DNA from: Kitasatospora viridis
GTDB taxonomy: Bacteria; Actinomycetota; Actinomycetes; Streptomycetales; Streptomycetaceae
Assembly (NCBI RefSeq): GCF_007829815.1
Contig: NZ_VIWT01000001.1
Coordinates: forward strand, 930,001 to 994,000
Reading direction: 5' to 3'
Length of the DNA: 64,000 nucleotides
A program made the position numbers and the translations under genes. Within the stretch, counting starts at the first letter, position 1, and the number at the start of each line of letters is the position of its first letter. Below the pieces are notes generated by a model, which saw nothing but the letters and a program-made list of their open reading frames with translations, was not told the origin of the DNA and searched no databases. This document shows positions 1 through 37,743 of the stretch, in pieces.

Positions 1-2
1 GG

Positions 3-2622: not shown

Positions 2623-3405
2623 ATGAGAACCGACGTCGAACCGGGCGCCACCGGCGACCTGGACCGATGGTTCCTCGCCGGCCTCGGGCGCGCCTGGCGC
2701 GGCACCCAGCTGCTGTGCCTGCCGCACAGCGGCGGCAACGCGTCCAGCTACCGCGGCTGGCTGGCCGGGGCCGAGACCGAAGTCGACGTGGTGCCGGTGC
2801 AACTACCGGGCCGTGAGACCCGGTTGACCGAGCCGGCGATCACCGACCAGCCGACCCTGATCGCCGAACTCGCCCGGGTGGTCGAGGCGGCGCCGTTCCG
2901 GCGGATCGCCCTCTTCGGGCACAGCATGGGCGCGGTGCTGGCGGTCAACCTCTGCCGCGCGCTGGAGGCCGCCGGCGTCCCGGTGGCGCACCTGTTCGTC
3001 TCCGGGCACGGCGGGCCGTCCCAGCGGCCGGTCGCCGACTTCCCGACCGACTCCTCCGACGAGGAGCTGCTGGAGGCCCTGCGGGAGAACGGCGCGCTCA
3101 ACTTCGAGGCCCTGATGGAGCATCCGGAGCTGCGCGAGATGGTCCTGCGGGTGCTCCGGTCCGACCTGCGGCTGGTGCTGTCCGGGATCGTCGCCGGACC
3201 GCCGGTGCAGGCGCCGATCACCGTCATCAACGGCCAGGACGACCCCATCCTGGCCCAGTGGGACACGGCCGAGTGGGCCGGCCTCACCGAGGGGCGCTGC
3301 GAGCGGCACCTGCTGCCCGGCGACCACTTCTACCTGGCCGAGCAGGGCGACCGGGTGGCCCGGATCATCCGCACCGCCCTGCAGGACGCGGAGGTGTCCG
3401 GATGA
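2623..3405 (+). CDS. Type II (external) thioesterase
   Basis: 260 residues, usual length for GrsT/RifR-type editing thioesterases of the alpha/beta-hydrolase fold. Visible features are the N-terminal [14 protein letters not shown] oxyanion segment, the nucleophile elbow GHSMG (Ser101) and the C-terminal GDHFYL containing the catalytic His (about residue 235). A good ribosome site (GGAGG) lies just before the ATG. In known systems such enzymes remove misprimed or stalled acyl groups from carrier proteins. Here it could also help release the chain, because the upstream NRPS has no TE domain. The 3' end overlaps the MbtH gene by four bases (ATGA), indicating one transcript with the NRPS. Confidence 0.93.
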
Positions 3406-3596
3406 CCTCGTACGCGGTGGTGGTCAACGACGAGGAGCAGTACTCGATCTGGCCGCTGGACCGGGACGTCCCGGCCGGCTGGCGGGAGGCCGGCACGCGC
3501 GGCACCAAGGAGGAGTGCCTGGCCCGGATCGAGGAGGTCTGGACCGACATGCGGCCGCTGAGCCTGCGTCGACGGATGGAAGGGGCGGGGGCATGA
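3402..3596 (+). CDS. mbtH: MbtH-like protein
   Basis: 64 residues. It shows the family signature: Y-x-V-V-V-N-x-E-x-Q-Y-S-I-W-P near the N-terminus, then P-A-G-W, a central C-L and the C-terminal [10 protein letters not shown]. MbtH proteins bind adenylation domains and are often needed for their folding and activity. Likely partners here are the A domain at the left edge and the free-standing A enzyme at 4.3-5.9 kb. The start is set by the ATGA overlap with the thioesterase gene; the stop overlaps the SDR start in the same way. It was missed as a separate long frame because an upstream in-frame start lies inside the thioesterase gene. Confidence 0.95.
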
Positions 3597-4348
3597 CGTC
3601 AGCACGGGTGGCGGTGGTCACCGGCGCCGGGCGCGGCATCGGCGCCGCCACGGCACTGCGGCTGGCCGGGGACGGCGCCAAGGTCGGCGTCCTGGACATC
3701 GACGCGGACACCGCGGCGGACACGGTGGAGCGGATCCGGGCGGCCGGCGGCACCGCGCACGCGGTGGTCGCCGACGTCGGCGACCCGGCCCAGGTCGAGG
3801 GCGCGCTGGCGAGCGTGGCGGCCGAGCTCGGGCCGCCGGTGATCCTGGTCAACAACGCCGGTGTGATCCGGGACCGGCCGGTGCAGGAGCTGTCGCTGGA
3901 CGAGTGGAACACCGTCATCGACGTGAACCTGCGCGGACCGTTCCTGCTGTGCCAGGCGATCGTCCCCTACCTGCGCGAACAGCGCTGGGGACGGATCGTC
4001 AACTTCTCCAGCTCCTCCGCGCTGGGCAACCGCGACCAGGCCAACTACTCGGCCGCGAAGGCCGGGATCGACGGCCTGACCCGCACCCTGGCGATCGAGC
4101 TGGGCCCCCTCGGGGTGACCGTGAACGCGGTGGCCCCCGGCTACATCGTCACCGACATGACGGCGCACACGGCCACCCGGATGGGGATGGACTTCGCCAG
4201 GCTCCAGCAGATGGTCGCCGCGCAGACCCCGGTGCGGCGGGTCGGTCAGCCCGAGGACGTGGCCAACGCCGTCGCGTTCCTGGTCGGGGAGGAGGCCGGG
4301 TTCGTCTCCGGGCACACCCTGTACGTCACCGGCGGCCCGATGCGGTAG
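3593..4348 (+). CDS. SDR-family oxidoreductase (FabG-like)
   Basis: 251 residues, classical short-chain dehydrogenase. Cofactor motif TGAGRGIG at residues 10-17, NNAG at 87-90, catalytic Ser near 139-141 and YSAAK with Tyr152 and Lys156. An acidic residue after beta2 (VLDIDAD) suggests NAD(H) rather than NADP(H); this is inference. The ATG overlaps the MbtH stop, so it is the last gene of the NRPS transcript. The substrate is unknown; a beta-hydroxy or keto group on an acyl or aminoacyl intermediate is typical. Its last 23 bases overlap the 3' end of the convergent adenylation gene. Confidence 0.92.
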
Positions 4349-5861
4349 GCGCGGCCGGGTCCGGCAGGGCCCGGCGGTCGACCTTCCCGTTGCTGGTCAG
4401 CGGCAGCCGGTCCAGCAGCACGAACCTGCCCGGGACCAGCGGCTCGGGCAGCCGTTCGCCCAGGTGGGTCCGCAGCTGCGCGGCGTCCACGCCGCCGGCC
4501 GGCCCGCCCGGGGCCACCGGGACCACGTAGGCCACCAGCTCGGTCGCGAGTCCGCTGCCGGAGACGGTGACGAAGGCGTCGCGCACCGCCGGATGCTGCG
4601 TCAGCACCGCGCGGATCTCGCCCGGTTCGATCCGGAACCCGCGCAGCTTGACCTGGTCGTCGATCCGGCTGGCGAACTCGATGACGCCGTCGGCCCGCCG
4701 GCGCACCAGGTCGCCCGTGCGGTACAGCCGGCCGCCCGGCGGCCCGAACGGGTCCGGCACGAACCGCTCGGCGGTCAGGCCCGGCCGCCCCAGGTAGCCC
4801 CGGGCCACCCCGGCCCCGCCGACCAGGAGTTCGCCGAGCACCCCGGCGGGCACCGGCCGGCCCTCGGGGTCCACCACGTGGCAGCGGGTGTCGCCGATCG
4901 GGCGGCCGATCGGCACGCCGCCGGCCTCGTCGAGGTCCGCCGGGGCCACCGGGTGCGTGGTGGCGAAGGTGGTCGTCTCGGTGGGCCCGTAGCCGTTGAC
5001 GATGCGCAGCTGCGGGTTGGCCGCCAGCAGCAGCCGCAGGTGCGGCACGGACAGCACCTCGCCGCCGACCACCAGGGTGCGCAGCGGCTCCAGCGCCTGC
5101 GGGTGCAGGTCCGCCACCAGGTTGGCCAACTGCGCGGTCAGCCACAGCACGGTGACCCCCGTGCGCCGCAGTTCCGCGCCGAGCTCGCGCGGGCCGACCG
5201 GCCCGGGCGGGTGGATCGCCAGCCGGGCGCCGTTGCACAGGGCGCTCCACACTTCGAAGGTCGACGCGTCGAAGGCCGTGGGCGCCAGCATCAGCAGGGT
5301 GTCGTCCGGGCCGACCGCCACCTCGTCGAGCCCGCGCACCAGCCGCACGACGCAGCGGTGGGTGACCGCGACGCCCTTCGGCGTGCCGGTGGATCCCGAG
5401 GTGTAGATGACGTAGGCGAGGCTGTCCGGTGCGACCGCCGGGCGCTGCGGCGGGGCCGCCGCGGGCCGGGCGGGCAGCGGCAGGTCGATGTGCAGCCGCT
5501 CGACCGGGTGGGTGGGCCGGCCGGTGAGCCGCTGATCGGTCACCAGCAGCCGGGCCCCGCTGTCCCGCAGCAGGAAGTCGATCCGCTCGACGGGATGGGC
5601 CGGGTCGAGCGGCACGTAGGCGCCGCCCGCCTTGAGCACCGCGAGCATCGCCACGACCTGTTCCGGCCCGCGCGGCAGCAGGATCGCCACCCGGTCGTCC
5701 GGCCGGATCCCGAGGCCGACCAGATGGTCCGCCAGCTCCTGTGCCTGTGCGTCGAGTTCACCGAAGGAACGGCGGTACGGCGGGCTCCACAGCGCTGTGC
5801 TCGCACCCCGCGCGGACACCTGCCGCGCAAACAGGTCGAGGACCGTTTCGGATATCGGCAT
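4326..5861 (-). CDS. Free-standing NRPS adenylation enzyme
   Basis: 511 residues, one complete adenylation domain without a fused carrier. Core A3 is YTSGSTGTPKG, A4 FDASTFEVW, A5 NGYGPTETTT, A7 YRTGDLV, A8 DDQVKLRGFRIEPGEI and A10 LTSNGKVDR with the catalytic Lys. Visible pocket residues by GrsA alignment are D235, A236, F239, G322, T330 and F331 (tentative). It should activate an amino or aryl acid and load it in trans onto a carrier, or supply an adenylate to another acceptor. It lies on the opposite strand to the NRPS block and its 3' end overlaps the SDR gene. A divergent promoter region of 126 bp separates it from the acyl-CoA dehydrogenase pair. Confidence 0.93.
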   Translation of the reverse strand: MPISETVLDLFARQVSARGASTALWSPPYRRSFGELDAQAQELADHLVGLGIRPDDRVAILLPRGPEQVVAMLAVLKAGGAYVPLDPAHPVERIDFLLRDSGARLLVTDQRLTGRPTHPVERLHIDLPLPARPAAAPPQRPAVAPDSLAYVIYTSGSTGTPKGVAVTHRCVVRLVRGLDEVAVGPDDTLLMLAPTAFDASTFEVWSALCNGARLAIHPPGPVGPRELGAELRRTGVTVLWLTAQLANLVADLHPQALEPLRTLVVGGEVLSVPHLRLLLAANPQLRIVNGYGPTETTTFATTHPVAPADLDEAGGVPIGRPIGDTRCHVVDPEGRPVPAGVLGELLVGGAGVARGYLGRPGLTAERFVPDPFGPPGGRLYRTGDLVRRRADGVIEFASRIDDQVKLRGFRIEPGEIRAVLTQHPAVRDAFVTVSGSGLATELVAYVVPVAPGGPAGGVDAAQLRTHLGERLPEPLVPGRFVLLDRLPLTSNGKVDRRALPDPAAPTASGRR

Positions 5862-5987: not shown

Positions 5988-7163
5988 ATGGACTTTTCCC
6001 ATACCAACGATGAATTGATGTTCCGTGAACGGGTCAAGGAGGAACTCCGTTCTCCGGACCTCGGCGCGGCCCTGGCCGCATTGCTGGGCAGCGCGGAACG
6101 GGAGCCCGACGAACGGGGGGTGTACCGGCTGCTCGGCGAGCACGGGCTGCTCGGGGTGGACTGGCCCCGCCGGTACGGCGGGCAGGGCCGCACCGCCGTC
6201 CACGCGGCCATCGCCGTCGAGGAGATGATGCGGGCCGGGGTCCCCGACACGCTGTTCGTCAACGGCGTCCAGACCGTCGGCAACCTGCTGCTGCTCGCCG
6301 GCACCGAGGAGCAGAAGCAGCGGATCCTGCCGCGCCTGGCGGCCGGCCGGTGCTTCGCGAGCGTGCTCTACACCGAGCCCGGGGTCGGCTCCGACCTGAG
6401 CGCGCTGACCACCCGCGCCGTCCCGGTCGACGGCGGCCACCGGATCGACGGCGTCAAGATGTTCAACCTCAAGAGCGGCATCACCGACTACGGGCTGTGC
6501 GCGGCGCGCACCTCGACCGAGGGTTCGCGCTACGAGGGGCTCACCCTGTTCCTGGTCGACATGCGCGCGCCCGAAGTGCTGGCCGAGCGCCTGGACACCA
6601 TGTCCGACGAGCAGTTCTACCGGGTCGCCCTGGACGGCGTGCGGGTCACCGGGGCCGATGTCGTCGGCGGGCTGGGCCAGGGGTGGGCGGTGCTCGCCGA
6701 GGCGCTGCCGCTCGAACGCACCGGCCTGGACTTCGCGTTGCGCGCCGAGCGCTGGTACCGGGCGGGTTGCGGGGGCTTCGACGCCCCCGAGGGCCTCGCC
6801 GGCTCCGACGGCCACGACCGCGCCGCCGCGCCCGGGCCGACCGCGGACCAGCTGGCCGACATCGGCCGGCACGGCGCCGCCACCAGCGCGGCCCGCCTGC
6901 TGGCCTGGCGCTGCGTCGGCTCGGCCGAGGCCGGGCGGCTGGACGAACTGGGCACCTCCACGGCCAAGTGGTACGCGAGCGAGCAGGCGGCCGCCGTCGC
7001 CCGCTGGGCCACCGCCGCCCACGACTTCGACGCCCCACCGGAGTTGGCCGCGCTGCTGGACAGCGCCTACCGGGAGGCCCCGGGGCTGACCCTCTCCGGT
7101 GGCACCTCCGAAATGATGCTCCAGACCATCTCCAGCTTCCTGCTCGCCGGTGGAACCACATGA
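5988..7163 (+). CDS. Acyl-CoA dehydrogenase-like flavoprotein, subunit 1
   Basis: 391 residues with the acyl-CoA dehydrogenase fold: an N-terminal helical domain, the central flavin segment YTEPGVGSDLSAL followed by the GxK segment (DGVKMFNLKSG), and a C-terminal helical domain ending in LSGGTSEMMLQTI. The GTSE segment near the C-terminus sits where catalytic Glu residues or flavin contacts are found in several family branches. It oxidises an acyl thioester (CoA or carrier-bound) to the alpha,beta-unsaturated form. The ATG follows a purine-rich stretch (GGGGGGAC). It overlaps the next acyl-CoA dehydrogenase by ATGA, so the two probably form a hetero-oligomer, as known for paired actinobacterial FadE enzymes. 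Confidence 0.88.
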   Translation: MDFSHTNDELMFRERVKEELRSPDLGAALAALLGSAEREPDERGVYRLLGEHGLLGVDWPRRYGGQGRTAVHAAIAVEEMMRAGVPDTLFVNGVQTVGNLLLLAGTEEQKQRILPRLAAGRCFASVLYTEPGVGSDLSALTTRAVPVDGGHRIDGVKMFNLKSGITDYGLCAARTSTEGSRYEGLTLFLVDMRAPEVLAERLDTMSDEQFYRVALDGVRVTGADVVGGLGQGWAVLAEALPLERTGLDFALRAERWYRAGCGGFDAPEGLAGSDGHDRAAAPGPTADQLADIGRHGAATSAARLLAWRCVGSAEAGRLDELGTSTAKWYASEQAAAVARWATAAHDFDAPPELAALLDSAYREAPGLTLSGGTSEMMLQTISSFLLAGGTT

Positions 7164-8245
7164 GACTCGAACTCGACGACGTACAGCGCGACCTGCTGCT
7201 GGCCCTGCGGGCCGGACTCGGCCGGGTGGCGGCAGCCGACGGACGACTCGACCCGGCCGAGGTGCACTCCTGCCTGGCCGAGTTGGACCTGTTCGCCCTG
7301 GAACTGCCGGACGACGCCGGCGGACTGGCCTTCGGCCTGGACCACGCGGCGCCGGTCTGCGAGGAGTTGGGGCAGTGGGCGGCGGCCGACCCCTACCGGG
7401 CCGGCGCACTCTTCGCCGACCTGCTCCGGGCACCGCGGGCCGACGGTGCGCAGCACCAGCCCCGTGACCTGGACGAGTTGCTGCCGCTGCTGGCCACCGG
7501 CAAGCTCACCGCGGGCCTGGCCGCCGGCACCGGCGTGGTCGCGACCCCCGGCACCGGCGGCTGGCGCCTGCACGGCGACTGCGCCCTGCCGGATCCGCCG
7601 CCCGAGGCCGCCTTCCACCTCGTCCCGGTCCGCCACGGCGGCGGCACCGCCCTCGCCGTCGTGGCCGTCGACTCCCCCGGCCTGGGCTGCGCGCCCACCG
7701 GCCGCGACGGCGTCCGGCGGCTGAGGCTGGCGGGTGTCACCGCGCACGCACTGTCCACGCCGCTGCACGACGCCGACGGCCTGCCCTCGCCGCTGCTGGT
7801 GCGGGCCCGGATCCGCCAGGCGGCGTACCTGCTCGGCCTGGCGGCGGGCGCCCACCGGCTCGCGGTCGCCCGGGCGGTGACGCGCCGTCAGTTCGACCGC
7901 AGCATCGGCGACAACCAGGCCGTCGCCTTCCCGCTGGCCGAGCAGTTCGCCCGACTGGAGGCGGCCCGCCTGCTGGTGCACGAGGCCGGCTGGCACAGCG
8001 ACAGCGGTGGCGACGGCGGTGGCGACAGCAGCGGCTCGGCGGCGCTCGGCGCCACCCAGTCGCTCGCCTGCACCGCCGAACTGGCGCTCCAGGTCACCGC
8101 GCACGCGGTGCACGTGCACGGCGCGGCCGGGATCGCCACCAGCTCAGCCGTCCAACGGCACTACCGGGCCGCCGCGGTGGAGGCGACCCGGTGGGGCGCC
8201 CCGGCCGCGCTCTGGCGGGAGGCCGGGGCCCTGCGACTACGGTGA
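7160..8245 (+). CDS. Acyl-CoA dehydrogenase-like protein, subunit 2
   Basis: 361 residues, more divergent than its partner. The C-terminal half is recognisable (RRQFDRSIGDNQAVAF and the AAGIATSSAVQRHYRAA segment), while the N-terminal half is shortened and degenerate around the flavin motif. A Gly/Ser/Asp-rich insert interrupts a helix at about residues 277-295. In paired FadE-type systems one subunit carries the catalytic base and the other mainly builds the FAD site; that fits the asymmetry here. The start is fixed by a four-base overlap with the first subunit. The 3' end overlaps the convergent lysZ-like gene by nine bases. Confidence 0.83.
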   Translation: MRLELDDVQRDLLLALRAGLGRVAAADGRLDPAEVHSCLAELDLFALELPDDAGGLAFGLDHAAPVCEELGQWAAADPYRAGALFADLLRAPRADGAQHQPRDLDELLPLLATGKLTAGLAAGTGVVATPGTGGWRLHGDCALPDPPPEAAFHLVPVRHGGGTALAVVAVDSPGLGCAPTGRDGVRRLRLAGVTAHALSTPLHDADGLPSPLLVRARIRQAAYLLGLAAGAHRLAVARAVTRRQFDRSIGDNQAVAFPLAEQFARLEAARLLVHEAGWHSDSGGDGGGDSSGSAALGATQSLACTAELALQVTAHAVHVHGAAGIATSSAVQRHYRAAAVEATRWGAPAALWREAGALRLR

Positions 8246-9115
8246 CGTCCGGCCGACCGGCGCCGGCTCGGGCAGCACGATCCTGGTGCCCGGGCCGTCG
8301 CCGCAGGCCGCCGCCAGCGGACGGGCCGCCCCGCCGTCGGCGATCCACACCTGCTCCACCCCGCCGACCAGCGCCTCCCTGGCCGCGACCAGTTTGATGG
8401 TCATGCCGCCGCCCACCCAGGGCGGTGCCGGTTCGCCGGCCGGCGGCAGCCGGTGGGTGTCCAGCACGCTGGCCGGGTCGGCGGGGTCGGTGAGCACGCC
8501 GGGCGCACCCGTGAGGAAGAGCAGCCGGCTCGCCCGCAGGGCCACCGCGACGGCCGCCGCGGCGCGGTCCGCGTTGGTGTTGACCGGCTCGCCGTCCTCG
8601 GCCAGGGCCGGCGGCGACACCACCGGCACCACACCGGCGGCGAGCAGCCCGTGCAGCAGCGCGGCGTTCACCTCGACGATCCGGCCGCTGCGGTCGTCCC
8701 TGACCACGGTGGGACGCCCGTCCACGACGGCCCGCACGGCCTTCTTGCGGCGGGCCCGCAGCAGGCCCGCGTCGAGGCCGGTCAGTCCCACGGCGGCCAC
8801 GCCGTGCCGGTCCAGGGCGGTGAGCAGGGCGGGTTTGACCCGGCCGGCCAGCGCCATGGTCAGCACGTCCAGCGTGGCGGCGTCGGTGTAGCGGGTCACC
8901 ACGCCGTCGGGCGCGGTGAGCTGACGCAGCGTCAGACCGAGCTGTCCGGCGAGCCGGGCCATCTCGGCGGATCCGCCGTGCACCAGCACCAACCGGCGCC
9001 CGGCGGCGGTGAGTTCGGCCACGTGCTCGCAGAGCCGCTGCACGTCCAGGGCCCCGCTGCCACCGCACTTGACCACGACGGTCTCCGCGCCGCCGGCGGG
9101 CGCCGGCGCGCTCAC
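8237..9115 (-). CDS. lysZ: LysZ-type carrier-bound amino acid kinase (ArgB family)
   Basis: 292 residues, amino acid kinase fold. Visible features are the N-terminal VVVKCGGS nucleotide/phosphate loop, LVHGGS, the central NTNADRAAAAVA segment and the C-terminal GGGMTIKLVAA with the conserved Lys. In the LysW route this enzyme phosphorylates the side-chain carboxylate of an amino acid held on the carrier protein. With glutamate-like substrate it would give the gamma-acyl phosphate for the LysY reductase. The GTG start overlaps the lysY stop (GTGA). It is the last gene of the eight-gene carrier-protein operon. Confidence 0.92.
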   Translation of the reverse strand: MSAPAPAGGAETVVVKCGGSGALDVQRLCEHVAELTAAGRRLVLVHGGSAEMARLAGQLGLTLRQLTAPDGVVTRYTDAATLDVLTMALAGRVKPALLTALDRHGVAAVGLTGLDAGLLRARRKKAVRAVVDGRPTVVRDDRSGRIVEVNAALLHGLLAAGVVPVVSPPALAEDGEPVNTNADRAAAAVAVALRASRLLFLTGAPGVLTDPADPASVLDTHRLPPAGEPAPPWVGGGMTIKLVAAREALVGGVEQVWIADGGAARPLAAACGDGPGTRIVLPEPAPVGRTSP

Positions 9116-10158
9116 AGCGGGTGCAGGCCGGGGAACTCGATCCCCAGCCGCTCCGGCCAGCCCTGCCTGATGTTGAGGCACTGCACGGCGTTGCCGGCGG
9201 CGCCCTTCACCAGGTTGTCGAGCGCGCCCACCGCGACCACCTCGCCGCGTTCCGCGTCGAGGGCGAAGCCCACGTCGCAGAAGTTGGAGCCGCTGAGGAT
9301 CTTCGGCTCGGGCAGCCGGTACAGCCCGCGCCGCTGGGCGACGATCCGCACGAACGGCTCGTCGCCGTAGCACTCGCGGTAGACCCGCCGCAGCTCCGGT
9401 TCGCGGACCTCGGTGGCGAGCGGGGCCCGGCACACCACCTGGGCACCGCGCACGGCCTCCACGCCGGTCGCGCCCATGGTCACGTCCAGGCCGGTCGCCT
9501 GGGCCACCTCCGCCTCGTGCCGGTGGCCCAGCGGCGCGAACACCCGCATCGCGCCGCTGCGTTCGGCGTGCAGGTTCATCGGCCCTGCGCCGGAGCCGGA
9601 ACCGCTGGACCCGATCCGGCCGTCGACGCTCACCCGGCCGGCGATCAGCCCGGCGGCCGCCAAGGGGTACAGCGCCAGGATGGCGGCGGTCGCCATGCAG
9701 CCGGGGACGCTGATCCGGTCGGCGCCGACGAGCTCCTTGCGGTGCCGCTCGGGCAGCCCGGTGACGAACTCCGCCAGCAGCTCCGGGGCGGTGTGCTCGG
9801 CACCGTAGTACCGCCGGTACACCGCCGGGTCGCGCAACCGGAAGTCGGCGCTGAGGTCGATCAGCACACCGGCCCGACCCGCCCACCGCGACACCATCGC
9901 CATGGTCTCGCGGTGCGGCGTGGCCAGGAACAGCACGTCGCAGTCGGGCGCGTCGTCGGGGGCCGTGAAGGTGAGGTCGGTCAGGCCGCGCAGGTTCGGG
10001 TGCACGCCGTCCACCCGCTTGCCGGCCAGGCTGCGGGAGACCGGCGCGACCAGCTCGACGTGGGGGTGGCCGAGCAGGATCCGGCACAGCTCCCCGCCGA
10101 TGTAGCCGTTCGCGCCGACGATCCCGGCCCGGACCACCCGCTCCCGGGTGTCACTCAC
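9112..10158 (-). CDS. lysY: LysY-type carrier-bound acyl-phosphate reductase (ArgC family)
   Basis: 348 residues, N-acetyl-glutamyl-phosphate-reductase family. The N-terminal NADP motif GANGYIGGEL, the catalytic segment VPGCMATAAILAL with the nucleophilic Cys, the SGSGSGAGP loop and the H-A-E region of the substrate site are present. It would reduce the carrier-bound acyl phosphate to the semialdehyde. The GTG start lies inside the end of lysW (8-base overlap), which ties translation of the reductase to that of the carrier protein. Confidence 0.93.
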   Translation of the reverse strand: MSDTRERVVRAGIVGANGYIGGELCRILLGHPHVELVAPVSRSLAGKRVDGVHPNLRGLTDLTFTAPDDAPDCDVLFLATPHRETMAMVSRWAGRAGVLIDLSADFRLRDPAVYRRYYGAEHTAPELLAEFVTGLPERHRKELVGADRISVPGCMATAAILALYPLAAAGLIAGRVSVDGRIGSSGSGSGAGPMNLHAERSGAMRVFAPLGHRHEAEVAQATGLDVTMGATGVEAVRGAQVVCRAPLATEVREPELRRVYRECYGDEPFVRIVAQRRGLYRLPEPKILSGSNFCDVGFALDAERGEVVAVGALDNLVKGAAGNAVQCLNIRQGWPERLGIEFPGLHPL

Positions 10159-10321
10159 CCCAGTCCTCCTCGGCCTCCGGCGCGAGGGCCAGCAGCACCG
10201 GGTCGACGCTGAGGACCTCAAGCTCGCTGCGGCAGTCGGCGCACTCGATGATCTCGTTCTGCCGCGGCGCGGCAGTGAGCTCGACGTCGCTCTCGCAGCT
10301 CGGGCACATCACTGTGGTCAT
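10151..10321 (-). CDS. lysW: LysW-type amino-group carrier protein (AmCP)
   Basis: 56 residues, too short for usual gene finders. It has two CxxC zinc knuckles (CPSC near residue 6 and CADC near residue 32) and ends exactly in EDWGE. The terminal Glu is the residue whose gamma-carboxyl is joined to the substrate amino group in LysW/AmCP pathways of Thermus, Sulfolobus and Streptomyces. A GGAGG ribosome site precedes the ATG. It sits between the transketolase C-half and lysY. It acts as the scaffold on which kinase, reductase, transketolase and aminotransferase work before LysK-type release. This is the diagnostic gene of the cluster. Confidence 0.96.
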   Translation of the reverse strand: MTTVMCPSCESDVELTAAPRQNEIIECADCRSELEVLSVDPVLLALAPEAEEDWGE

Positions 10322-10322
10322 G

Positions 10323-11339
10323 TCATTTCCTCCTCTGATCAGGGCTGTCCGACCGGGCGGCGCCCAGCAGGGTCAGCGCCTCGGTCACGATCCGGTCCAC
10401 GGTCACTCCGCCGTCCTCCAGCAGGTCGCGCTCGTCACCGACACTGTCGAGGTAGCGGTCCTCGATCCCCACCCGCCGCACCCGGCAAGGGTGTTCGGAG
10501 GTGACGAGTTCACTCACCGCACCGCCGAGCCCGCCCACCACGAGGTGGTCCTCGACGGTGACCAGGCCGGCCGTCTCCTGGGCCGCGGCGAGCACGGCCG
10601 CCCGGTCCAGGGGCTTGATGGTGTGCATGTTCAGCACCCGGGCCGAGATCCCGCGCTCCGCCAGCAACCGCGCCGCGGTGAGCGCGTAGTGCACCGGCAG
10701 CGGTCCGGTCGCGAGCAGCGCCACGTCGTCGCCGTCCACCAGCCGCACCGCCTCGCCGATGGTGAAGGCGTACGGCTCGGGGTGGACCTGCGGCGTCGGG
10801 TTGCGGCCGAGCCGGATGAACACCGGGCCGGGGTGGTAGGCGGCGGCCCGGACCGCCAGCGCGGTCTCACCGGCGTCGGCGGGCACCAGCACGGTCAGCT
10901 GCGGCATGGTCCGCAGGATCGCCAGGTCCTGCAGGGCGTGGTGCGAGGGCCCGTAGTGGCCGGCGGACAGGCCGCCGTGGGTCGCCACGATGCGGACCGG
11001 CAGGCTGCTGCCCGCAACGTCCAGCTTCAGCTGCTCGGCCGCCCGGGTGGTGGCGAACGCGCTCATCGTGTTGGCGAACGGGATCAGCCCGGCGGCGGCG
11101 AGCCCGGCGGACAGGCCGAACAGGTTCGCCTCGGCGATCCCGACGTTCACGTACTGGCCCGGCAGTTCGGCCGCGAAGCCGTCCTCGAACCCGCCCATGT
11201 CGGAGTCGACGCAGTGGATCCGCTCGTCGGTGCGGGCCAGCTCCAGCAGCGTGCGCCGGTAGGTGTCCCGGGCCGCGCCCTGGTAGAGCGCCGCCCAGGA
11301 GTCCTCGACCGGCGCGGGCCGCTCTTCGGCCGTGGTCAT
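10323..11339 (-). CDS. Transketolase, C-terminal subunit
   Basis: 338 residues, corresponding to the pyrimidine-binding and C-terminal domains of transketolase. The catalytic Glu context is VNVGIAEANLFGLSAGLA, and THGGLSAGHYGPSHHALQD matches the substrate-channel segment. It must pair with the separate N-terminal subunit encoded just upstream (ATGA overlap) to form a thiamine-diphosphate enzyme. In AmCP secondary metabolism a transketolase adds a two-carbon ketol unit to the carrier-bound glutamate semialdehyde, giving the C7 keto intermediate. Its position directly upstream of lysW supports that role rather than central metabolism. Confidence 0.92.
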   Translation of the reverse strand: MTTAEERPAPVEDSWAALYQGAARDTYRRTLLELARTDERIHCVDSDMGGFEDGFAAELPGQYVNVGIAEANLFGLSAGLAAAGLIPFANTMSAFATTRAAEQLKLDVAGSSLPVRIVATHGGLSAGHYGPSHHALQDLAILRTMPQLTVLVPADAGETALAVRAAAYHPGPVFIRLGRNPTPQVHPEPYAFTIGEAVRLVDGDDVALLATGPLPVHYALTAARLLAERGISARVLNMHTIKPLDRAAVLAAAQETAGLVTVEDHLVVGGLGGAVSELVTSEHPCRVRRVGIEDRYLDSVGDERDLLEDGGVTVDRIVTEALTLLGAARSDSPDQRRK

Positions 11340-12178
11340 GTCCGGTTCCTCCGTCGTGCGTTCAGTCCCGCCACCGCCCGCTCGTGGAGCCGCGGCGTGA
11401 GCCGGACGTAGTGGCTCTTCCGGTTGTCCTCGAAGATCGGCACACCACGCCCCTTCAGGGTCCTGGCGATCACCACGGTGGGACGGTCCGGTGCGGCCGG
11501 CAGCGCGCCGAACACCGCCCGCAGCGCCTCCAGGTCGTGCCCGTCGACGTCGACCACCGACCAGCCGAAGCTGCGCCAGCGGTCGGCGAGCGGTTCCAGC
11601 GCCATGGCGTCCTCGGTGCGGCCGGTGATCTGCCAGCCGTTGCGGTCGATCACGGCGGTCAGGTTGCCGAGGCCGAAGTGGGCGGCCGACATGATCGCCT
11701 CCCAGTTGGAGCCCTCCTGGAGTTCGCCGTCGCCGAGCAGCGCGAACACCCGGTTGTCGCGGCCGGTGCGGGCCATCGCCAGCGCGACCCCGCAGGCCAG
11801 CGACAGCCCGTGGCCGAGCGAGCCGGTCGGGAACTCCACCCCGGGCAGCCGGCGCAGCGGGTGCCCGGCCAGCCGGCTGCGCCGCTGCCCGTAGCTGGCG
11901 CACTCCTCGGGCGGGAAGTAGCCGTGCTCGGCCAGCACCGCGTACAGCGCGGCGCTGGCGTGGCCCTTGCTGAGCACGAACCAGTCCCGGTCGGCCCAGG
12001 TAGGCTCCTCCGGCCGGTAGCGCAGCACCGAGCCGTACAGCACGGTGAGGATGTCGACGGCCGACAGGCTGCCGCCGACGTGGGTGCCGTGCTCGGTCGC
12101 GCCCATCGCCAGCACGTTCTCCCGGGCCCGGTGCGCCCGGTCCGCCAACTCGGCGGTGCTGACCGGCTGTTCCGTCAC
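11336..12178 (-). CDS. Transketolase, N-terminal subunit (TPP-binding)
   Basis: 280 residues with the thiamine-diphosphate motif GDGELQEG...N (residues about 157-190), the conserved GHASAALYAVL His segment and PTGSLGHGLSLA. The GTG start overlaps the aminotransferase stop and its own stop overlaps the C-terminal subunit start, so the two halves are made in sequence. Split transketolases of this kind occur both in central metabolism and in natural-product clusters; the operon context argues for C2 transfer onto the carrier-bound semialdehyde. Confidence 0.92.
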   Translation of the reverse strand: MTEQPVSTAELADRAHRARENVLAMGATEHGTHVGGSLSAVDILTVLYGSVLRYRPEEPTWADRDWFVLSKGHASAALYAVLAEHGYFPPEECASYGQRRSRLAGHPLRRLPGVEFPTGSLGHGLSLACGVALAMARTGRDNRVFALLGDGELQEGSNWEAIMSAAHFGLGNLTAVIDRNGWQITGRTEDAMALEPLADRWRSFGWSVVDVDGHDLEALRAVFGALPAAPDRPTVVIARTLKGRGVPIFEDNRKSHYVRLTPRLHERAVAGLNARRRNRT

Positions 12179-13491
12179 GCTTGCGCCGCCGTCCGGTCGA
12201 GCTGCTGCCACAGCGGCCGGTAGGTCATCGACCGGGCGGCGGGCAGCAGCAGCTCCCGCTGCTCCCACACCTTCTCGAAGGCGTCCGCGCAACGGTCCAG
12301 CAGCGGCCCGGCCGCCGGGTTGAGGTGCCAGCGCTGGATGGTCAGCGAGTCCTCGATCACGGCCAGCGTGGTCGGGTGGTCCTGCGGGCGGTAGGGCTGG
12401 TCCGCGGGCCGGACCGCGCGCAGCGCCGGCTGGGCCGGCAGCGGCAGCGACTGGTACGGCCGCACCGGCACGCCCTCGGCGCGCAGCGCGCGCTGCAGGA
12501 TCGTGCGCAGCGCGCCGGGGCTGACGTCCGGGCAACCCGAGCGCTGGTTGTCGAAGCGCAGCCGCAGTTGGAACCAGGCGTGGGTGCGGTCCGGCGGGCA
12601 GTGCGGCGTGACGATCCCGTCGAGTGCCGCCAGCCGGTCCAGGAACCGGCGCACGTTGCGGTCCCGCTGCTCGTGCCGCTCGGCCAGCCGGGCGAGTTGG
12701 CAGCGGGTGAAGGCGGCCTGGATGGTGCTGAGCTTGGCGTTGCCGGCCACCACCGTGGAGAGGTAGGCCCGTTCGCCGCGGCCGGTCAGCTCCTCGCCGA
12801 ACTGCCGGTGCAGCAGCACGCGTTGGAGGATCTCCGGGTCGTCGGTGGTGATCAGCCCGCCCTCGCCGCTGGTGGGCAGGTTCTTCGAGGCGTTCAGGCT
12901 GAACGCCGCGACGTCGCCCAGCGCGCCCGCCTGCCGGCCGTGGTAGGTCGCGCCGTGCGCCTGTGCCGCGTCCTCGATCAGCACCAGGCCGTGCCGGTCG
13001 GCCAGGGCCCGCAGCGCGTCCATGTCGCAGGGCAGGCCGTGCAGGTGGACGGCGAGGATCGCCTGGGTGCGCGGGGTGATCGCGGCGGCCGCCGCGACCG
13101 GGTCGATGGTGTAGGTGACCGGGTCGATGTCCACGTACACCGGCACGCAGCCGCGCAGCACCGGCGCGGACGCGGTGGCGATGAAGGAGAAGGCCGGCAC
13201 CAGGACCTCGGCACCCGGTTCGATCCCGGTCGCCACCAGTGCCAGCTCGATCGCGGCGGTGCCGGAGGAGAGCGCCGCGCAGTGCCGGACCCCGACGTAC
13301 TGCGCCCACTCCTGCTCCAGGAGTTGCACCTCGCCGTGCTCCACCGAGGTCAGGCGCCCGCTGTCGAGGACCCCGAGCACCGCCTCGCGCTCGGCGTCCG
13401 TGACGATCGGCCACGCGGTGCTCTCGGAGGCTCCCGCGTCGGCGTCCACGGTGCGGGTCCCGCCGAACATTGCCAGCCGTGAGTCGGCCAT
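12175..13491 (-). CDS. DegT/DnrJ/EryC1 PLP-dependent aminotransferase
   Basis: 438 residues. The PLP Lys lies in FSLNASKNLPTSGEGG, the DAAQAHGA segment supplies the Asp contacting the pyridine nitrogen, and SSGTAAIELAL is the phosphate-binding segment. In the carrier-protein route an aminotransferase installs the second amino group on the keto-C7 intermediate made by the transketolase, giving the DADH skeleton. The start codon overlaps the lysX stop (TGATG) and its stop overlaps the transketolase start. Confidence 0.92.
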   Translation of the reverse strand: MADSRLAMFGGTRTVDADAGASESTAWPIVTDAEREAVLGVLDSGRLTSVEHGEVQLLEQEWAQYVGVRHCAALSSGTAAIELALVATGIEPGAEVLVPAFSFIATASAPVLRGCVPVYVDIDPVTYTIDPVAAAAAITPRTQAILAVHLHGLPCDMDALRALADRHGLVLIEDAAQAHGATYHGRQAGALGDVAAFSLNASKNLPTSGEGGLITTDDPEILQRVLLHRQFGEELTGRGERAYLSTVVAGNAKLSTIQAAFTRCQLARLAERHEQRDRNVRRFLDRLAALDGIVTPHCPPDRTHAWFQLRLRFDNQRSGCPDVSPGALRTILQRALRAEGVPVRPYQSLPLPAQPALRAVRPADQPYRPQDHPTTLAVIEDSLTIQRWHLNPAAGPLLDRCADAFEKVWEQRELLLPAARSMTYRPLWQQLDRTAAQA

Positions 13492-14405
13492 CAGTTCCTC
13501 ACCAGTTGCTCGACCAGGTAGTCCACGTAACAGCCGGCCAGGTCGATGTCGAGGACCTCGGCGGCGCCACGGAACTGGGGTGTGTGATTGACCTCGTTGA
13601 CGAGGAGTCGTCCCTCGCCGTCCTCCAGGACGTCGATCCCGTAGACGCCGGGGCCGATCGCGGCGGCGGTGGCGGCCAGCAGCTTCTCCAGCTCCGGGCC
13701 GACCGGGCACGGTTCGGTGCGGGCGTCGCGGGCGGTGTTGGTGCGCCACGACGCGGAGGTGCGGTACACCGCGCCGACCACCTCGGTGCCGAACACCAGC
13801 CCCCGGATGTCCCGTCCGGGCTTGTCGACGTACTCCTGCAGGTAGGTGATGCGCTGCTGCGGATCGGGCAGCGCCTCGCGCAGTTCGAGCACCGCCTCGG
13901 CGGCGTCCCGGTCGGCGAGCCTGGCCACCTGTCGGCCCCAGGAGCCGGTCAGCGGCTTGACCACCGCCGGGTACCCGAAGTCGTCGAGGGCGTCCAGCGC
14001 GGCCTGCGGGGTGAGCGTGACCAGGCAGCGCGGCACGGGCAGGCCCGCGGCCTGGAGGGCGAGCGTGGTGAGGAGCTTGTCGCCGCACAGGGCGATCGCC
14101 GCGGCGCTGTTGACCACCGTCACGCCCGCGTGTTCGAGGAGCCGCGCCGTGTTCAGGTTCCGGTGGTGCGACACCTCGCGGGCCACCGCGACCGACCAGG
14201 GCACGGTCGGCCGGTCCAGCCGGAAGACCGCGGTCCGCGGGTCGAGCACCTGGTACGAGACCCGGCGGCGGTCGAGCTCGTCGAGGATGCGCTTCTCCTC
14301 GAACGCGATGCGCGAGGCGACGAAGGCCAGCCGCGGCGGCAGCTCGGCGTCGTGCTCGGGGGCGTGCTCGGCGTCGTGCTCGGAAGCATGCTCGGGGGCG
14401 TTCAC
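13491..14405 (-). CDS. lysX: LysX-type ATP-grasp ligase (loads amino acid on LysW)
   Basis: 304 residues, RimK/LysX branch of the ATP-grasp superfamily. Visible features: N-terminal LAFVASRIAFEEKRILDEL, ATP-binding YPAVVKPLTGSWGRQVARL, and the C-terminal NEVNHTPQFRG metal-binding segment typical of LysX/ArgX. It joins the alpha-amino group of the substrate (glutamate or aminoadipate) to the terminal Glu of the carrier. An unusual N-terminal extension of about 20 residues is made of His/Glu/Asp/Ala repeats encoded by a short tandem DNA repeat. The GTG start overlaps the LysK stop (GTGA), preceded by GGGAGG. Confidence 0.93.
   Translation of the reverse strand: MNAPEHASEHDAEHAPEHDAELPPRLAFVASRIAFEEKRILDELDRRRVSYQVLDPRTAVFRLDRPTVPWSVAVAREVSHHRNLNTARLLEHAGVTVVNSAAAIALCGDKLLTTLALQAAGLPVPRCLVTLTPQAALDALDDFGYPAVVKPLTGSWGRQVARLADRDAAEAVLELREALPDPQQRITYLQEYVDKPGRDIRGLVFGTEVVGAVYRTSASWRTNTARDARTEPCPVGPELEKLLAATAAAIGPGVYGIDVLEDGEGRLLVNEVNHTPQFRGAAEVLDIDLAGCYVDYLVEQLVRN
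14345..14402 (-). repeat. Tandem repeat encoding the His/Glu-rich N-terminus of LysX
   Basis: Imperfect repeats of about 12 to 15 bases (GCG-TGCTCGG-type units) lie just inside the lysX start. They encode alternating EHA/EHD steps. The repeats keep the reading frame. Such tracts can change length by slippage, and the encoded His residues might bind metal; both points are inference. Confidence 0.7.
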
Positions 14406-15499
14406 CGCAACGCCTCCCGGTCGCGGCCGGCACCGGCCGGCAGCGGTCGGCGTGCGGCGGCCAGGGATTCGGCCAACTCCTCGACCGCCGTGGTCAGCAC
14501 GTCGATCGCGGTCAGGTAGTCGGCCAGTTCCACGTGCTCCTCGTCGGTGTGGTCCAGCCGGGAGTCCCCCGGGCCGTAGGCCGCGATCGGCACGTTCCAC
14601 TCCGGTCCGACCACGTTCATGTCGGAGGTGCCGAGCTTCACCTTGGCGGTGGGCGCCCCGACGTGCCGCCGGATCCCCGCGCGTAAGGCGGCCACCACCG
14701 GGTCGGTGCCGCGCGACCGGACGGCCGGCAGGCTCTCGATCACGGTCAGCCGGTCCGGCGCCACCAACTCGCGCAGCCAGCCCAGGAATTCGTCCCGGTC
14801 GAAGCCGATCGGGATCCGGCAGGAGACCTCCAGCCGGGCGTTCAGCAGATCGCCGCCCAGGGCGACCAGGGCCGGGATCGCCCGGTCGAAGGCGGGCTGT
14901 CCGGCGTCGTCCGGGTCGAGCCGGCGGCGCACCGCCTGCCAGTGCTCCACCGCGACCTCCACCGCCTTGGGCGCCGGCGAGCTGGTGTGCGCACCCGGGC
15001 GGGAGACGTCGACGGTGAAACGCACGATGCCCTTGTAGCCGAGCACCACGTTGCCCAGTCCGCTGGGCTCGCCGATCACCACGGCGTCCGGCCGCACCTC
15101 GCCGCGCAGGTGCTGGGCGCCGGGCGAGTTGCCCTCCTCGCCGACGGCCCCCACCACCATGAGGTGGGCGTCGCAGAGCGCCGACGCGCGCAGCGCCGCC
15201 CACACCATGGTGGCGAGCGGGCCCTTGGCGTCGACCGTCCCGCGGCCGTACAGCTTGCCGTCGCGCTCGTACACCGGCAAGTCGCCGGGCACGGTGTCCA
15301 GATGGCCGAGCAGCAGGATGAGCGGCGCACCGGGGTTCCCCAGCTCGCCGATCGCGTTCCCGACGCCGTCGACGCGGGCCCGGAAGCCCAACCGGCTCAT
15401 CTCATCGACCAATTGATTGACCAACCGGTCCTCGTTGCCGGTGGTCGACGGGATCTCCACCATCCGCCGGAGCAGCCCGACCTCGTCGTATCCGCCCAC
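14402..15499 (-). CDS. lysK: LysK-type M20 metallopeptidase (carrier-protein release)
   Basis: 365 residues, M20 family. Metal and catalytic segments: GHLDTVPG (His, catalytic Asp), GTVDAKGP (bridging Asp), GAVGEEGN (catalytic Glu and metal Glu), a GEPSG segment, and the C-terminal DHTDEEHVEL with the last His ligand. In LysW pathways LysK hydrolyses the isopeptide bond and frees the finished amino acid. GTG start preceded by a GGGGG stretch. This is the first gene of the carrier-protein operon, transcribed leftward from the 15.5-15.9 kb divergent region. Confidence 0.91.
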   Translation of the reverse strand: MGGYDEVGLLRRMVEIPSTTGNEDRLVNQLVDEMSRLGFRARVDGVGNAIGELGNPGAPLILLLGHLDTVPGDLPVYERDGKLYGRGTVDAKGPLATMVWAALRASALCDAHLMVVGAVGEEGNSPGAQHLRGEVRPDAVVIGEPSGLGNVVLGYKGIVRFTVDVSRPGAHTSSPAPKAVEVAVEHWQAVRRRLDPDDAGQPAFDRAIPALVALGGDLLNARLEVSCRIPIGFDRDEFLGWLRELVAPDRLTVIESLPAVRSRGTDPVVAALRAGIRRHVGAPTAKVKLGTSDMNVVGPEWNVPIAAYGPGDSRLDHTDEEHVELADYLTAIDVLTTAVEELAESLAAARRPLPAGAGRDREALR

Positions 15500-15904: not shown

Positions 15905-17179
15905 ATGGACCAGTTAGCGGCAAACAGGCAGGGGTCAGTCGCCCTTGACACCCGCCGCGGAGTCGGCGGCCTGAACCTTCATACCGTCGACGAGCGAACA
16001 GAATCCGCAATTCTCGAACGCGCGGTCCGCAGTCTCGACACATGGCGCGGTTATGTCAAGACGTTTCCGGCATCCGCTCCATCCGCGCCTTTCGGGACAT
16101 TCCCTTTTGCCGAACTGCTCGCGCACTTCCGGCATACGGGTCGATTGGCCGCAGATCCGTCGCTACTGGCGGCCCTGCGGGAAACGCTGGCCGCGGAGCG
16201 CGATCCCGAGCTCTCGGCATGGCTGCGGATGACGGTCGATCAGGAGGACGGCGACTACGCCTCCTACCTCGGCGGCGAGCTCTACGAACGGCACGCGGGC
16301 CGGACCGGCGAGCGGCGCGGCGACGACGCGATCGACGACGAGGTGGTCATCGCCCTGATCGCCGACCTGGTGTCCCTGGAAGCCCGGGCACTCGGCTCGG
16401 CGCCCGGCAACGACCGCCAACGCGCCCGCACTCGGGCGGCGTTGCAGGCGCTGGCCGGCCTGGCCGAGCTGGCACCGGACCGGGCGCCGGGCCACGAGCT
16501 GCTCACCGCCGCCGAGTTGGCCGGCCCGCTGGCCGGCCGCCTCGACGACGGCGCGCTCGCCGAGCGGGCGTCCGCCGTCGCCGCCGCGGTCGCCGACACC
16601 ACCACCGCCGGAACCCGGCGGCTGGTCGACCTCACCCTGCTCCCCGTCACCCGGATGCACGACGAGCTGATGTTCATCCGGATGATCCAGGTGTTCGAGA
16701 TCCTGTACACCCATGTCGGGAACGGCCTGGCGGACGCGGCGGAACTGCTGGACCGGGGCGAGGTGGAGGCCGCGTGCGCGGTGCTGGCCAAGGCCACCGG
16801 CCGCATGCAGGCGACCCGCATGCTCTACCGGGTACTGACCACGATGCCGCCGGAGGCGTTCTCGGTGATCCGGAACAACACCGACGGCCGCAGCGCGATC
16901 CAGTCGCTCGCCCACCGGCGCGTGGAGCAGTTGAGCACCTCGACGGTGCAGGAGGCCTTCGAGCGGCGCTCGCCTCGCCTCGACGACGCTCAACTGCACG
17001 ACCTGGTAACGGTGTTGAAGGCCATGGACACGAGCTGGACCACGGCCAAGCGCACCCACTGGGGCATCACCTTGAAGATCATCGGAAGCGTGGCCGGAAC
17101 CGGCGGAACCACCGGGGCCGACTACCTCGCGACGCGGTCCGTGATCCCGCTGTTCCCCTTCCTGCACGGCAGCGCCTGA
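15905..17179 (+). CDS. Tryptophan 2,3-dioxygenase-superfamily haem protein with N-terminal extension
   Basis: 424 residues. The C-terminal ~180 residues follow the TDO pattern: HDELMFIRMIQVFEILY (about 252-268), an Arg-rich helix ending RMLYRVLTTMPPEAF, the IQSLAHRRVEQ segment, and HWGITLKIIG followed by GTGGTTGADYL. His385 aligns with the proximal haem ligand. The distal His of bacterial TDO (the H in IHQ) is Ile261 here. The first ~240 residues have no TDO counterpart that I recognise. The family opens indoles with O2; a changed distal pocket suggests another substrate or reaction. The ATG at 15905 follows a GGGGG stretch. Single-gene transcript ending at the hairpin at 17.2 kb. Confidence 0.7.
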   Translation: MDQLAANRQGSVALDTRRGVGGLNLHTVDERTESAILERAVRSLDTWRGYVKTFPASAPSAPFGTFPFAELLAHFRHTGRLAADPSLLAALRETLAAERDPELSAWLRMTVDQEDGDYASYLGGELYERHAGRTGERRGDDAIDDEVVIALIADLVSLEARALGSAPGNDRQRARTRAALQALAGLAELAPDRAPGHELLTAAELAGPLAGRLDDGALAERASAVAAAVADTTTAGTRRLVDLTLLPVTRMHDELMFIRMIQVFEILYTHVGNGLADAAELLDRGEVEAACAVLAKATGRMQATRMLYRVLTTMPPEAFSVIRNNTDGRSAIQSLAHRRVEQLSTSTVQEAFERRSPRLDDAQLHDLVTVLKAMDTSWTTAKRTHWGITLKIIGSVAGTGGTTGADYLATRSVIPLFPFLHGSA

Positions 17180-18671: not shown

Positions 18672-18731
18672 GGCAGGTCCGGATTCGCTAGTAGGTGGTT
18701 CGGCTCGGGCCGGTCTCCGGCCGGCCCCGGC

Positions 18732-19997: not shown

Positions 19998-20029
19998 GAC
20001 GCCGTGCGGCGGTGCAGCCGACAGTCCAT
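19994..20029 (-). CDS. Possible 11-residue leader peptide upstream of the MFS gene
   Basis: A short frame (MDCRLHRRTAS) begins with ATG seven bases after a strong GGAGGGG site and ends in TGA overlapping the MFS start codon (ATGA). The MFS ATG itself has no ribosome site, so translation may depend on ribosomes finishing this leader. Seen: frame, site and overlap. Inferred: translational coupling. Confidence 0.5.
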   Translation of the reverse strand: MDCRLHRRTAS

Positions 20030-20073
20030 TGGTTTCCCCTCCGAGGTGCCGCAGCGTTGTTGACGCCCCATCA

Positions 20074-20123
20074 GTCCGTATCGGTCCGTATCGGTCCGTA
20101 CACCGGTCCGTGCACCGGTCCGT
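20074..20123. repeat. Five direct repeats of GTCCGT (possible operator array)
   Basis: GTCCGT occurs at 20074, 20084, 20094, 20106 and 20118, mostly as CGGTCCGT, with steps of 10, 10, 12 and 12 bases. That is close to one helical turn per copy. The array lies upstream of the MFS leader, in the divergent region between the exporter and the aldehyde-dehydrogenase operon. Such phased repeats are a common layout for regulator binding in Streptomyces clusters; the regulator is not identified. Confidence 0.55.
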
Positions 20124-20129
20124 CGTCAT

Positions 20130-20611
20130 CGACCGAGGCCCGTCCGGTCAGGAGCACGCGGTTGCCGACAATAGTCGGCGTCCACGGCGGCGTCGAGGGA
20201 AAGATCGGCCCCACCGGCCGAGCTGGCCGAACGCCTCCGGAGAAGATCGAATTCCGTCTGACTGGAGGGGGGTCGTGCCCCGCAGTCTTCTGATATGTTC
20301 GCCGCCGCTGGGCGCTGAATCGACGCGGCCGATGTGCATGATGGGGAGGGCATGCCGCTCAACGGCCTTTCACACACTGTGTATTGACACGCAGTTCGTG
20401 CTTGCGCGTGATCGACTCGGCGCGACGACGAACGTCCGCGAATTCTTGAGTTTCCGCGTCCTCCGCACGCGACCGCTCGTCGACCTCCTCTTCCTCGCGA
20501 AACGCGTCGACGCACCGTCCGGCACCGAGGACATCCCCACACATCACCTGAGTGTCTGCAATCAGGGCCGCCACAAGCAGCCGCGCGCATCGAAGGATGA
20601 GGGCAACGTTC
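20130..20611. promoter_or_regulatory. Intergenic control region upstream of the 20.7-30.0 kb operon
   Basis: About 480 bases with no convincing gene. At 20372-20382 there is a perfect dyad (ACACA-C-TGTGT) inside TTTCACACACTGTGTAT, directly followed by TTGACA (20384-20389), a possible -35 box. A similar TTCACAC-type dyad lies in front of the LuxR regulator at 38.8 kb. The region probably holds the promoter of the plus-strand operon. I cannot fix the transcription start. Confidence 0.45.
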
Positions 20612-22655: not shown

Positions 22656-22669
22656 GGAGGACGGACGAC

Positions 22670-37742: not shown

Positions 37743-37743
37743 G

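Follow-up and report, generated by a model that had tools for sequence, protein, structure and literature searches.

The biosynthesis of vazabitide A on an amino-group carrier protein (AmCP) was reportedly described by Hasebe et al. in 2016, and its gene set is said to include a carrier, a ligase, a kinase, a reductase, a split transketolase, an aminotransferase and a hydrolase, which probably furnish a C7 acid. The LysW-dependent lysine and arginine pathways of Thermus and Sulfolobus are the related systems of primary metabolism. The azabicycle-bearing compounds from which the C7 acid 2,6-diamino-5,7-dihydroxyheptanoic acid (DADH) is known include, according to a review (PMC9570651), the DNA-alkylating azinomycins, whose pathway involves a kinase, a reductase, the split transketolase AziC5/C6, an aminotransferase and DADH itself. 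In the same review, with reference to Kurosawa et al. 2022, sulfation of DADH is placed ahead of aziridine closure. Here we describe a window of 64,000 nucleotides from Kitasatospora viridis (assembly GCF_007829815.1, bases 930001-994000 of the 6.1 Mb contig NZ_VIWT01000001.1, hereafter C1, in a genome of 10.1 Mb), which carries a comparable eight-gene AmCP operon beside a nonribosomal peptide synthetase (NRPS) gene.

The operon holds counterparts of all the vazabitide A components listed above and of the azinomycin kinase, reductase, split transketolase and aminotransferase. It also shares LysW, LysX, LysZ, LysY and LysK homologues with the LysW-dependent lysine and arginine loci of metagenome-assembled genomes (MAGs), but differs from these primary pathways in having a transketolase pair and an NRPS and no aminoadipate or arginine genes. 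The comparison with vazabitide A was made through sister clusters, that is, AmCP clusters of other genomes of the family, and not with the reference cluster itself; it sets the K. viridis cluster apart by the lack of the sister-type sulfotransferase, by a cobalamin radical-SAM methyltransferase and by an altered adenylation code. The absence of this sulfotransferase also distinguishes it from the azinomycin pathway, in which sulfation precedes aziridine closure (PMC9570651). We consider it likely that the operon makes a DADH-type C7 acid on its carrier and that the NRPS builds this acid into a peptide, probably without forming an azabicyclo[3.1.0]hexane.

An intact AmCP operon with a split transketolase

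A preliminary description of the window, made from the sequence alone, had proposed a chain of eight genes, lysK-lysX-aminotransferase-tkN-tkC-lysW-lysY-lysZ, with a carrier of 56 residues ending in EDWGE. Both the order and the coordinates (8237-15499, all on the minus strand) were borne out, as was the carrier upon translation, and the operon was confirmed to be real and intact (Table 1). From lysK to lysZ, the genes are spaced by -4, +20, -4, -4, +1, -8 and -4 bases, which suggests translational coupling. At third codon positions, the eight genes each have a G+C content of 91-97%. The two CxxC motifs and the C-terminal EDWGE of LysW are intact, as are the GDG(X)N motif of tkN, the G-I-A-E motif of tkC, the PGC cysteine of LysY and the M20 metal-ligand motifs of LysK; we take these motifs to have their customary functional meaning. 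A preset pattern for the aminotransferase lysine had no match in the DegT protein, and by eye a lysine stands at the expected place in 'LNASKNLP'.

With regard to family assignment, LysW scores marginally below the cut-off of the stricter TIGR01206 lysW model (52.6 versus 53.2 bits). The two transketolase halves span residues 13-283 and 316-625 of the single 627-residue model NF004559, each scoring below its whole-protein cut-off, as is natural for a half, and the closest solved structure to tkN is 6yak, the N component of a split-chain transketolase. LysX, LysZ, LysY and LysK homologues, a split transketolase and an aminotransferase are thereby found within one operon.

Table 1. Genes of the AmCP operon and other genes of the cluster. 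Positions refer to the window unless another contig or locus is named; the three kin are Streptomyces sp. SPB162 (G499), S. rishiriensis NBRC 13407 and Streptomyces AC550_RSS872
Feature	Position	Strand	Evidence
LysK-like hydrolase	14402..15499	-	NF003367 [LysW]-lysine hydrolase, 349.5 bits (below cut-off 363); TIGR01902, 270 bits (cut-off 163)
LysX-like ATP-grasp ligase	13491..14405	-	TIGR02144 (LysX_arch), 283 bits, above cut-off; motif NEVNHTPQFRGA
DegT/DnrJ/EryC1 aminotransferase	12175..13470	-	PF01041, 1.4e-93
Transketolase N-terminal half (tkN), thiamine diphosphate (ThDP) binding	11336..12178	-	PF00456, 1e-46; GDG(X)N motif
Transketolase C-terminal half (tkC)	10323..11339	-	PF02779 and PF02780; complements tkN on NF004559
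LysW-type AmCP, 56 aa	10151..10321	-	Zn-ribbon PF21344, 2.4e-14, above cut-off
LysY/ArgC-like reductase	9112..10158	-	TIGR01850 (argC), 340 bits, above cut-off; catalytic-Cys motif
LysZ/ArgB-like kinase	8237..9115	-	NF010659 [LysW]-aminoadipate kinase, 237 bits (cut-off 223)
NRPS gene, 3' part in window	1..2588	+	full gene C1:925695-932588, 2297 aa
Type II thioesterase-like hydrolase (type by eye)	2623..3405	+	weak alpha/beta-fold matches only; 73-76% in three kin
MbtH-like protein (by eye)	3402..3596	+	no NCBIfam match; 81-86% in three kin
Short-chain dehydrogenase/reductase (SDR)	3608..4348	+	86-89% in three kin
Stand-alone adenylation domain, code DAFWVGGTF	4326..5861	-	pocket letters
Acyl-CoA-dehydrogenase-like half 1	6081..7163	+	78-80% in three kin, 53% in Kibdelosporangium
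Acyl-CoA-dehydrogenase-like half 2	7160..8245	+	67-68% in three kin
Tryptophan-2,3-dioxygenase (TDO)-like protein, optional right-hand member	16229..17179	+	PF03301, 2.1e-12
Cobalamin radical-SAM protein	L032 12781-14613		TIGR03975, 471.7 bits (cut-off 281.85)

Probably a specialised rather than a primary pathway

LysW scores above the Pfam cut-off in 51 of 394 genomes of the Streptomycetaceae and in 5 of 396 sampled across the phylum. We read 31 of the 50 other LysW-bearing genomes of the family, at one site each (some have two) and with up to 20 kb per side. Transketolase halves occur at 30 of these 31 sites, the exception being that of G667, which lies on short contigs, so that these sites typically carry the operon in its split-transketolase form. 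AmCP operons of this type are common in the family, and the operon type is already known. Related AmCP operon stretches were also seen on large Streptomyces plasmids (three matches, 75-76% DNA identity over 33-54% of the query).

The five Lys enzymes are all homologous to counterparts in primary lysine or arginine biosynthesis, and the LysX clade branches, with weak support (81), next to enzymes of primary-type MAG loci. The chance that the operon itself serves such a primary pathway is nevertheless close to nil: the genome has its own argB (C1:209222) and dapA (C1:1621823) elsewhere, LysW is patchily distributed in the family, and the operon combines a split transketolase with an NRPS neighbourhood. 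When named genomes were scanned with an alignment of LysX, the best-scoring 80 of 551 loci were retained; 30 of these showed neither tkN nor tkC, namely 24 primary-type MAG loci and 6 actinobacterial ones. Record titles served to select the 24 MAG loci, which come almost entirely from Chloroflexi and Bipolaricaulota and include one unplaced and one actinobacterial MAG. None of them carries tkN, tkC or DegT, some of their contigs being short, and their nameable neighbours are arginine or aminoadipate genes. No aminoadipate or arginine genes were seen beside the K. viridis operon in scans of the cluster genes. On the grounds of the separate argB and dapA and of primary-type loci devoid of tkN, tkC and DegT, the primary pathway was rejected.

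An adenylation lineage tied to AmCP clusters

The NRPS has the domain order A1-T-C-A2-T-C, its first 200 residues being without a domain call, and A1 lies left of the window. Based on pocket positions that we presume to be the usual ones, the codes are DVFESGGIG for A1, DPLWGGCTN for A2 and DAFWVGGTF for the stand-alone adenylation domain, the last of which we take to be valine-like. In the tree, A1 falls in a clade of 26 rows together with adenylation domains of other AmCP clusters; a G334 row of insufficient length was left out, as were rows from five loci duplicating kin or sites. These code and tree comparisons drew on AmCP loci alone (31 sites, four kin, L122-L148), which biases them, and a control search of the 394 family genomes was therefore made. 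LysW above the cut-off is present in 18 of the 20 genomes that gave the top A1 matches, compared with 51 of 394 overall (Fisher p 8e-16), and the association holds without K. viridis and SPB162 (16 of 18, p 4e-14). In 16 of the 18 LysW-bearing genomes, the A1 match is no more than 23 kb from LysW on the same contig; in the remaining two, separate contigs carry them.

The relatives of A1 in 21 compared clusters have the code DVFDFGGV[TA], and the sulfotransferase is present in all 21; the clade label caught 17 of these rows, the remaining four being assigned to this code by their pocket letters. The five clusters of the K. viridis clade have the code DV[FQ]ESGGIG, and none has the sulfotransferase in the stretch read. 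Among the AmCP loci, the domains closest to A1 form a single lineage with the code DVFDFGGV[TA]. Judged from tree and pocket, A1 belongs to a lineage tied to AmCP clusters, with a pocket changed from DVFDFGGV[TA]. This suggests that the NRPS takes the carrier-made acid in a form unlike that used by the sister clusters.

Absence of the sister-type sulfotransferase

Family clustering of the genes at the 31 sister sites yielded a sulfotransferase-like family at 25 and two partner families at 23 each, as well as homologues of CysC, CysD and CysN at 21, 17 and 14 sites. According to Pfam, the sulfotransferase belongs to Sulfotransfer_5 and one partner to BtrH_N; the other partner matches no family. 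None of these six families was matched in 103.8 kb of K. viridis or in 40 kb of SPB162. Genome-wide, a sulfotransferase of the sister type, the only type searched for, was found in none of K. viridis and the three kin, while all five positive controls were detected; PF19798 gave the same picture, with matches in 0 of 4 of these genomes and in 3 of 3 positives. In all, the genome-wide search found the sulfotransferase in 8 of 15 genomes. The G715 gene lies just beyond the 20-kb flank, and the G667 copy lies on another contig.

The K. viridis branch has lost, or never had, the sulfotransferase of the sister clusters. The preliminary description had noted no sulfotransferase-type gene in the window, which holds for the sister-cluster family, the one searched for, and had suggested that either the acid is used differently or the gene lies to the left. 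Of these two options, the first is now the likelier, since no gene of the sister type was found in the 39.8 kb to the left or elsewhere in the genome. Among the open papers listed in our searches, none dealt with this sulfotransferase-less AmCP branch.

Cluster borders and accessory genes

The left border of the K. viridis cluster is at C1:921539, 8.5 kb outside the window, and its right border lies no further than window base 17179. The same cluster is present in SPB162, S. rishiriensis and AC550, with 67-89% identity per shared gene. In SPB162, it consists of genes for a major facilitator superfamily (MFS) transporter, the cobalamin radical-SAM protein, a carrier-domain protein, the NRPS, the thioesterase, the MbtH-like protein, the SDR, the adenylation protein and the acyl-CoA-dehydrogenase-like pair, together with the eight operon genes and the TDO-like gene; the genes further on match nothing in the window set and look like housekeeping genes by eye. 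S. rishiriensis and AC550 have the same set minus the TDO-like gene, which adjoins the operon only in K. viridis and SPB162 (57% identity). Kibdelosporangium persicum carries a rearranged, more distant version, in which no match to the MFS or MbtH-like gene was found.

All five genomes (K. viridis and four kin) carry the cobalamin radical-SAM gene within the NRPS cluster. Its family, TIGR03975, is named for methyltransferases of ribosomal peptides. A ribosomal precursor peptide beside it was considered and rejected: four genomes share some similarity in the intergenic stretch, in which no common reading frame was seen. The best NCBIfam match of the first acyl-CoA-dehydrogenase-like half, the prolyl-PCP dehydrogenase RedW, is weak and far below its cut-off. 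S. rishiriensis and AC550 have a longer, C-A-T-like protein, to a part of which the stand-alone adenylation protein corresponds; in SPB162, the T part is missing together with much of C, and only A remains in K. viridis (domains by eye, protein starts from our own gene caller). The TDO-like protein keeps a GTGG-type motif near its C-terminus and, by eye, lacks what we take to be the usual distal histidine.

Neighbouring clusters on the right

The genes at 17271-30015 recur at 79-95% identity in G439, G657, G744 and G448, except that G439 had no MFS match and G744 no Xaa-Pro peptidase match. They encode an AONS-type pyridoxal-phosphate-dependent (PLP) acyltransferase, a CitE aldolase, a MaoC dehydratase, an OCD-type dehydrogenase and two proteins that are ATP-grasp-like by eye and match no model, together with an acetaldehyde dehydrogenase/4-hydroxy-2-oxovalerate aldolase pair and JmjC-like and Xaa-Pro peptidase proteins. 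Ketomemicin clusters, as described in PMC11943689, likewise comprise an aldolase, a PLP acyltransferase, a MaoC-like dehydratase, this type of dehydrogenase and probable ATP-grasp ligases; the aldehyde dehydrogenase/aldolase pair and the JmjC-like and Xaa-Pro peptidase genes are additional in K. viridis. The amidinotransferase of the ktmA-F set had no match among the 11 genes scanned with NCBIfam.

A third block, at 30161-38445, had no match in the regions of the right-hand module in the four genomes, nor was it found joined to the other two as a block in any genome compared. It contains genes for a GNAT-like protein (by eye), a D-2-hydroxyacid dehydrogenase, a flavin reductase, an MFS transporter, an alkanesulfonate-monooxygenase-like protein, two ATP-grasp proteins and a heme-oxygenase-like iron enzyme. 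From about 38 to 60 kb, the G+C content falls to 63.5-69%, the coding signal is weaker and few genes are called.

It could be argued that the whole stretch up to 38.4 kb is one hybrid cluster that joins the carrier-made acid to the ketomemicin-like module, since G334 and G764, too, have AmCP genes next to AONS/CitE/MaoC genes. This is very improbable for K. viridis. No AmCP gene was found in the 20-40 kb read around the right-hand module in the four genomes that share it, G448 carrying its AmCP cluster on another contig, and the left-hand cluster occurs in four genomes without the right-hand module in the stretches read. As the two modules recur separately, a single hybrid cluster was rejected as the principal interpretation, and the genes right of 17271 are, as judged from their recurrence and predicted types, separate clusters, of which that at 17271-30015 is ketomemicin-like. 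In G334 (L118, L119) and G764 (L238, L239), an AmCP operon with a sulfotransferase lies beside an AONS/CitE/MaoC/Xaa-Pro module, and neither LysZ nor LysY had a match in the stretch read; this arrangement is possibly an AmCP-pseudopeptide hybrid cluster.

Discussion

This analysis defined the borders of the K. viridis cluster and revealed a sulfotransferase-less branch of AmCP clusters, an altered A1 code and a radical-SAM gene common to all five genomes, all of which are new. The synthesis of a DADH-type C7 acid is the best reading of the operon, in view of the separate location of argB and dapA, the distribution of the split transketolase and the AmCP-linked A1 of the adjacent NRPS. The same evidence supports the earlier proposal that the product of the cluster contains DADH or a close variant, in so far as its chemistry can be deduced from genes.

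Several observations weigh against this interpretation. The control search for A1 scored three candidates per genome; G610 and G725 are among its top 20 genomes and have no LysW above the cut-off, and adenylation domains of LysW-less genomes follow closely in score. The link between sulfotransferase and pocket code comes from one clade of five clusters and few independent events; as this clade is a single lineage, it amounts to one correlated change, not many. G352, G441 and G512, which are not close kin, also lack the sulfotransferase genome-wide, so that its absence is not unique to the K. viridis clade, and a homologue is present on another contig of Kibdelosporangium. As for the substrate, the LysX motif reads RGA, unlike the GF of most sister clusters and unlike a solved relative that we take to be the glutamate-specific ArgX, and the model matched by LysZ (NF010659) is named for aminoadipate.

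These last points raise the question of whether the carrier is loaded with alpha-aminoadipate, which would result in a C8 homologue. In addition to the LysZ score above the cut-off of this model, the N-T pair of LysX, as in the Thermus LysX structure, agrees with such loading; most sister clusters have N-V, as does a structure that we presume to be Sulfolobus ArgX. On the other hand, the LysX motif ends in GA, as it does in 16 of the 24 primary-type loci, and 10 of these 16 HGA loci adjoin arginine genes, one of the 10 with a weak, 31% identical homocitrate-synthase-like match; one adjoins both sets, one aminoadipate genes only and four neither. Among the six RNS loci, four adjoin aminoadipate genes, one arginine genes and one neither; the two further loci read HTL and HTA. 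The motif is therefore only partly informative as a substrate test. In the tree, from which the duplicates L124, L142 and L162 and rows of fewer than 200 residues were left out, K. viridis LysX falls in a clade of 25 rows and within it in an inner clade of five, apart from the sulfotransferase-type clade. Neither family scans nor inspection by eye revealed an aminoadipate-supply gene in the cluster. Loading with aminoadipate appears distinctly improbable, and glutamate would be the better guess.

From the observed gene content, motifs, kin clusters, sulfotransferase absence and A1 lineage, we infer every chemical step of the DADH-type route. LysX would join glutamate via its amino group to the C-terminal Glu of the carrier, and LysZ and LysY would produce the semialdehyde on the carrier. 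The split transketolase would then add a two-carbon ketol unit and the DegT enzyme would transaminate the carrier-bound intermediate, after which LysK would free the finished C7 diamino-dihydroxy acid. A1 of the neighbouring NRPS would activate this acid, or a derivative, for a short peptide, which would include valine if the DAFWVGGTF code has been read correctly. The acyl-CoA-dehydrogenase-like pair, the SDR and the cobalamin radical-SAM C-methyltransferase may take part in processing, and the product would be an open-chain or simple-ring derivative.

Alternatively, the azabicyclo[3.1.0]hexane could still be formed, as in vazabitide, azinomycin or ficellomycin, if an unrelated enzyme activated the hydroxyl group. 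The operon and the adenylation lineage are the same as in sulfotransferase-bearing clusters, several of which also have the acyl-CoA-dehydrogenase-like pair. We nevertheless regard this as unlikely, given that no homologue of the sister sulfotransferase exists in the genome or in the three closest kin, that its two usual partner genes and cysCDN are also absent from the region searched and that the A1 pocket code has changed. An azabicycle in the K. viridis product is accordingly an unlikely prediction; the lack of the sister-type sulfotransferase, together with the changed pocket, suggests that the acid probably enters the peptide without an aziridine, and that the product is probably a different compound from those of the sister clusters.

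A more specific version of this non-aziridine product can be envisaged, which is rather doubtful as it stands. Following alpha,beta-unsaturation of the carrier-bound acid by the dehydrogenase pair, the 6-amino group would close on C3 to give a 4-hydroxy-5-hydroxymethyl-pyrrolidine, and the radical-SAM enzyme would C-methylate this aza-deoxyribose-like amino acid. If true, this would constitute a new natural-product scaffold, and one carrier pathway would be split between alkylating and iminosugar-like products.

Whatever the exact structure of its product, this branch offers a natural comparison with the sister clusters: the same acid factory would be put to a different use where the sister-type sulfation enzyme is missing and the adenylation pocket is altered. 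The comparison allows a test of which step determines whether the product alkylates or not, and two named strains, S. rishiriensis NBRC 13407 and Streptomyces sp. SPB162, are available in which the product may be sought.

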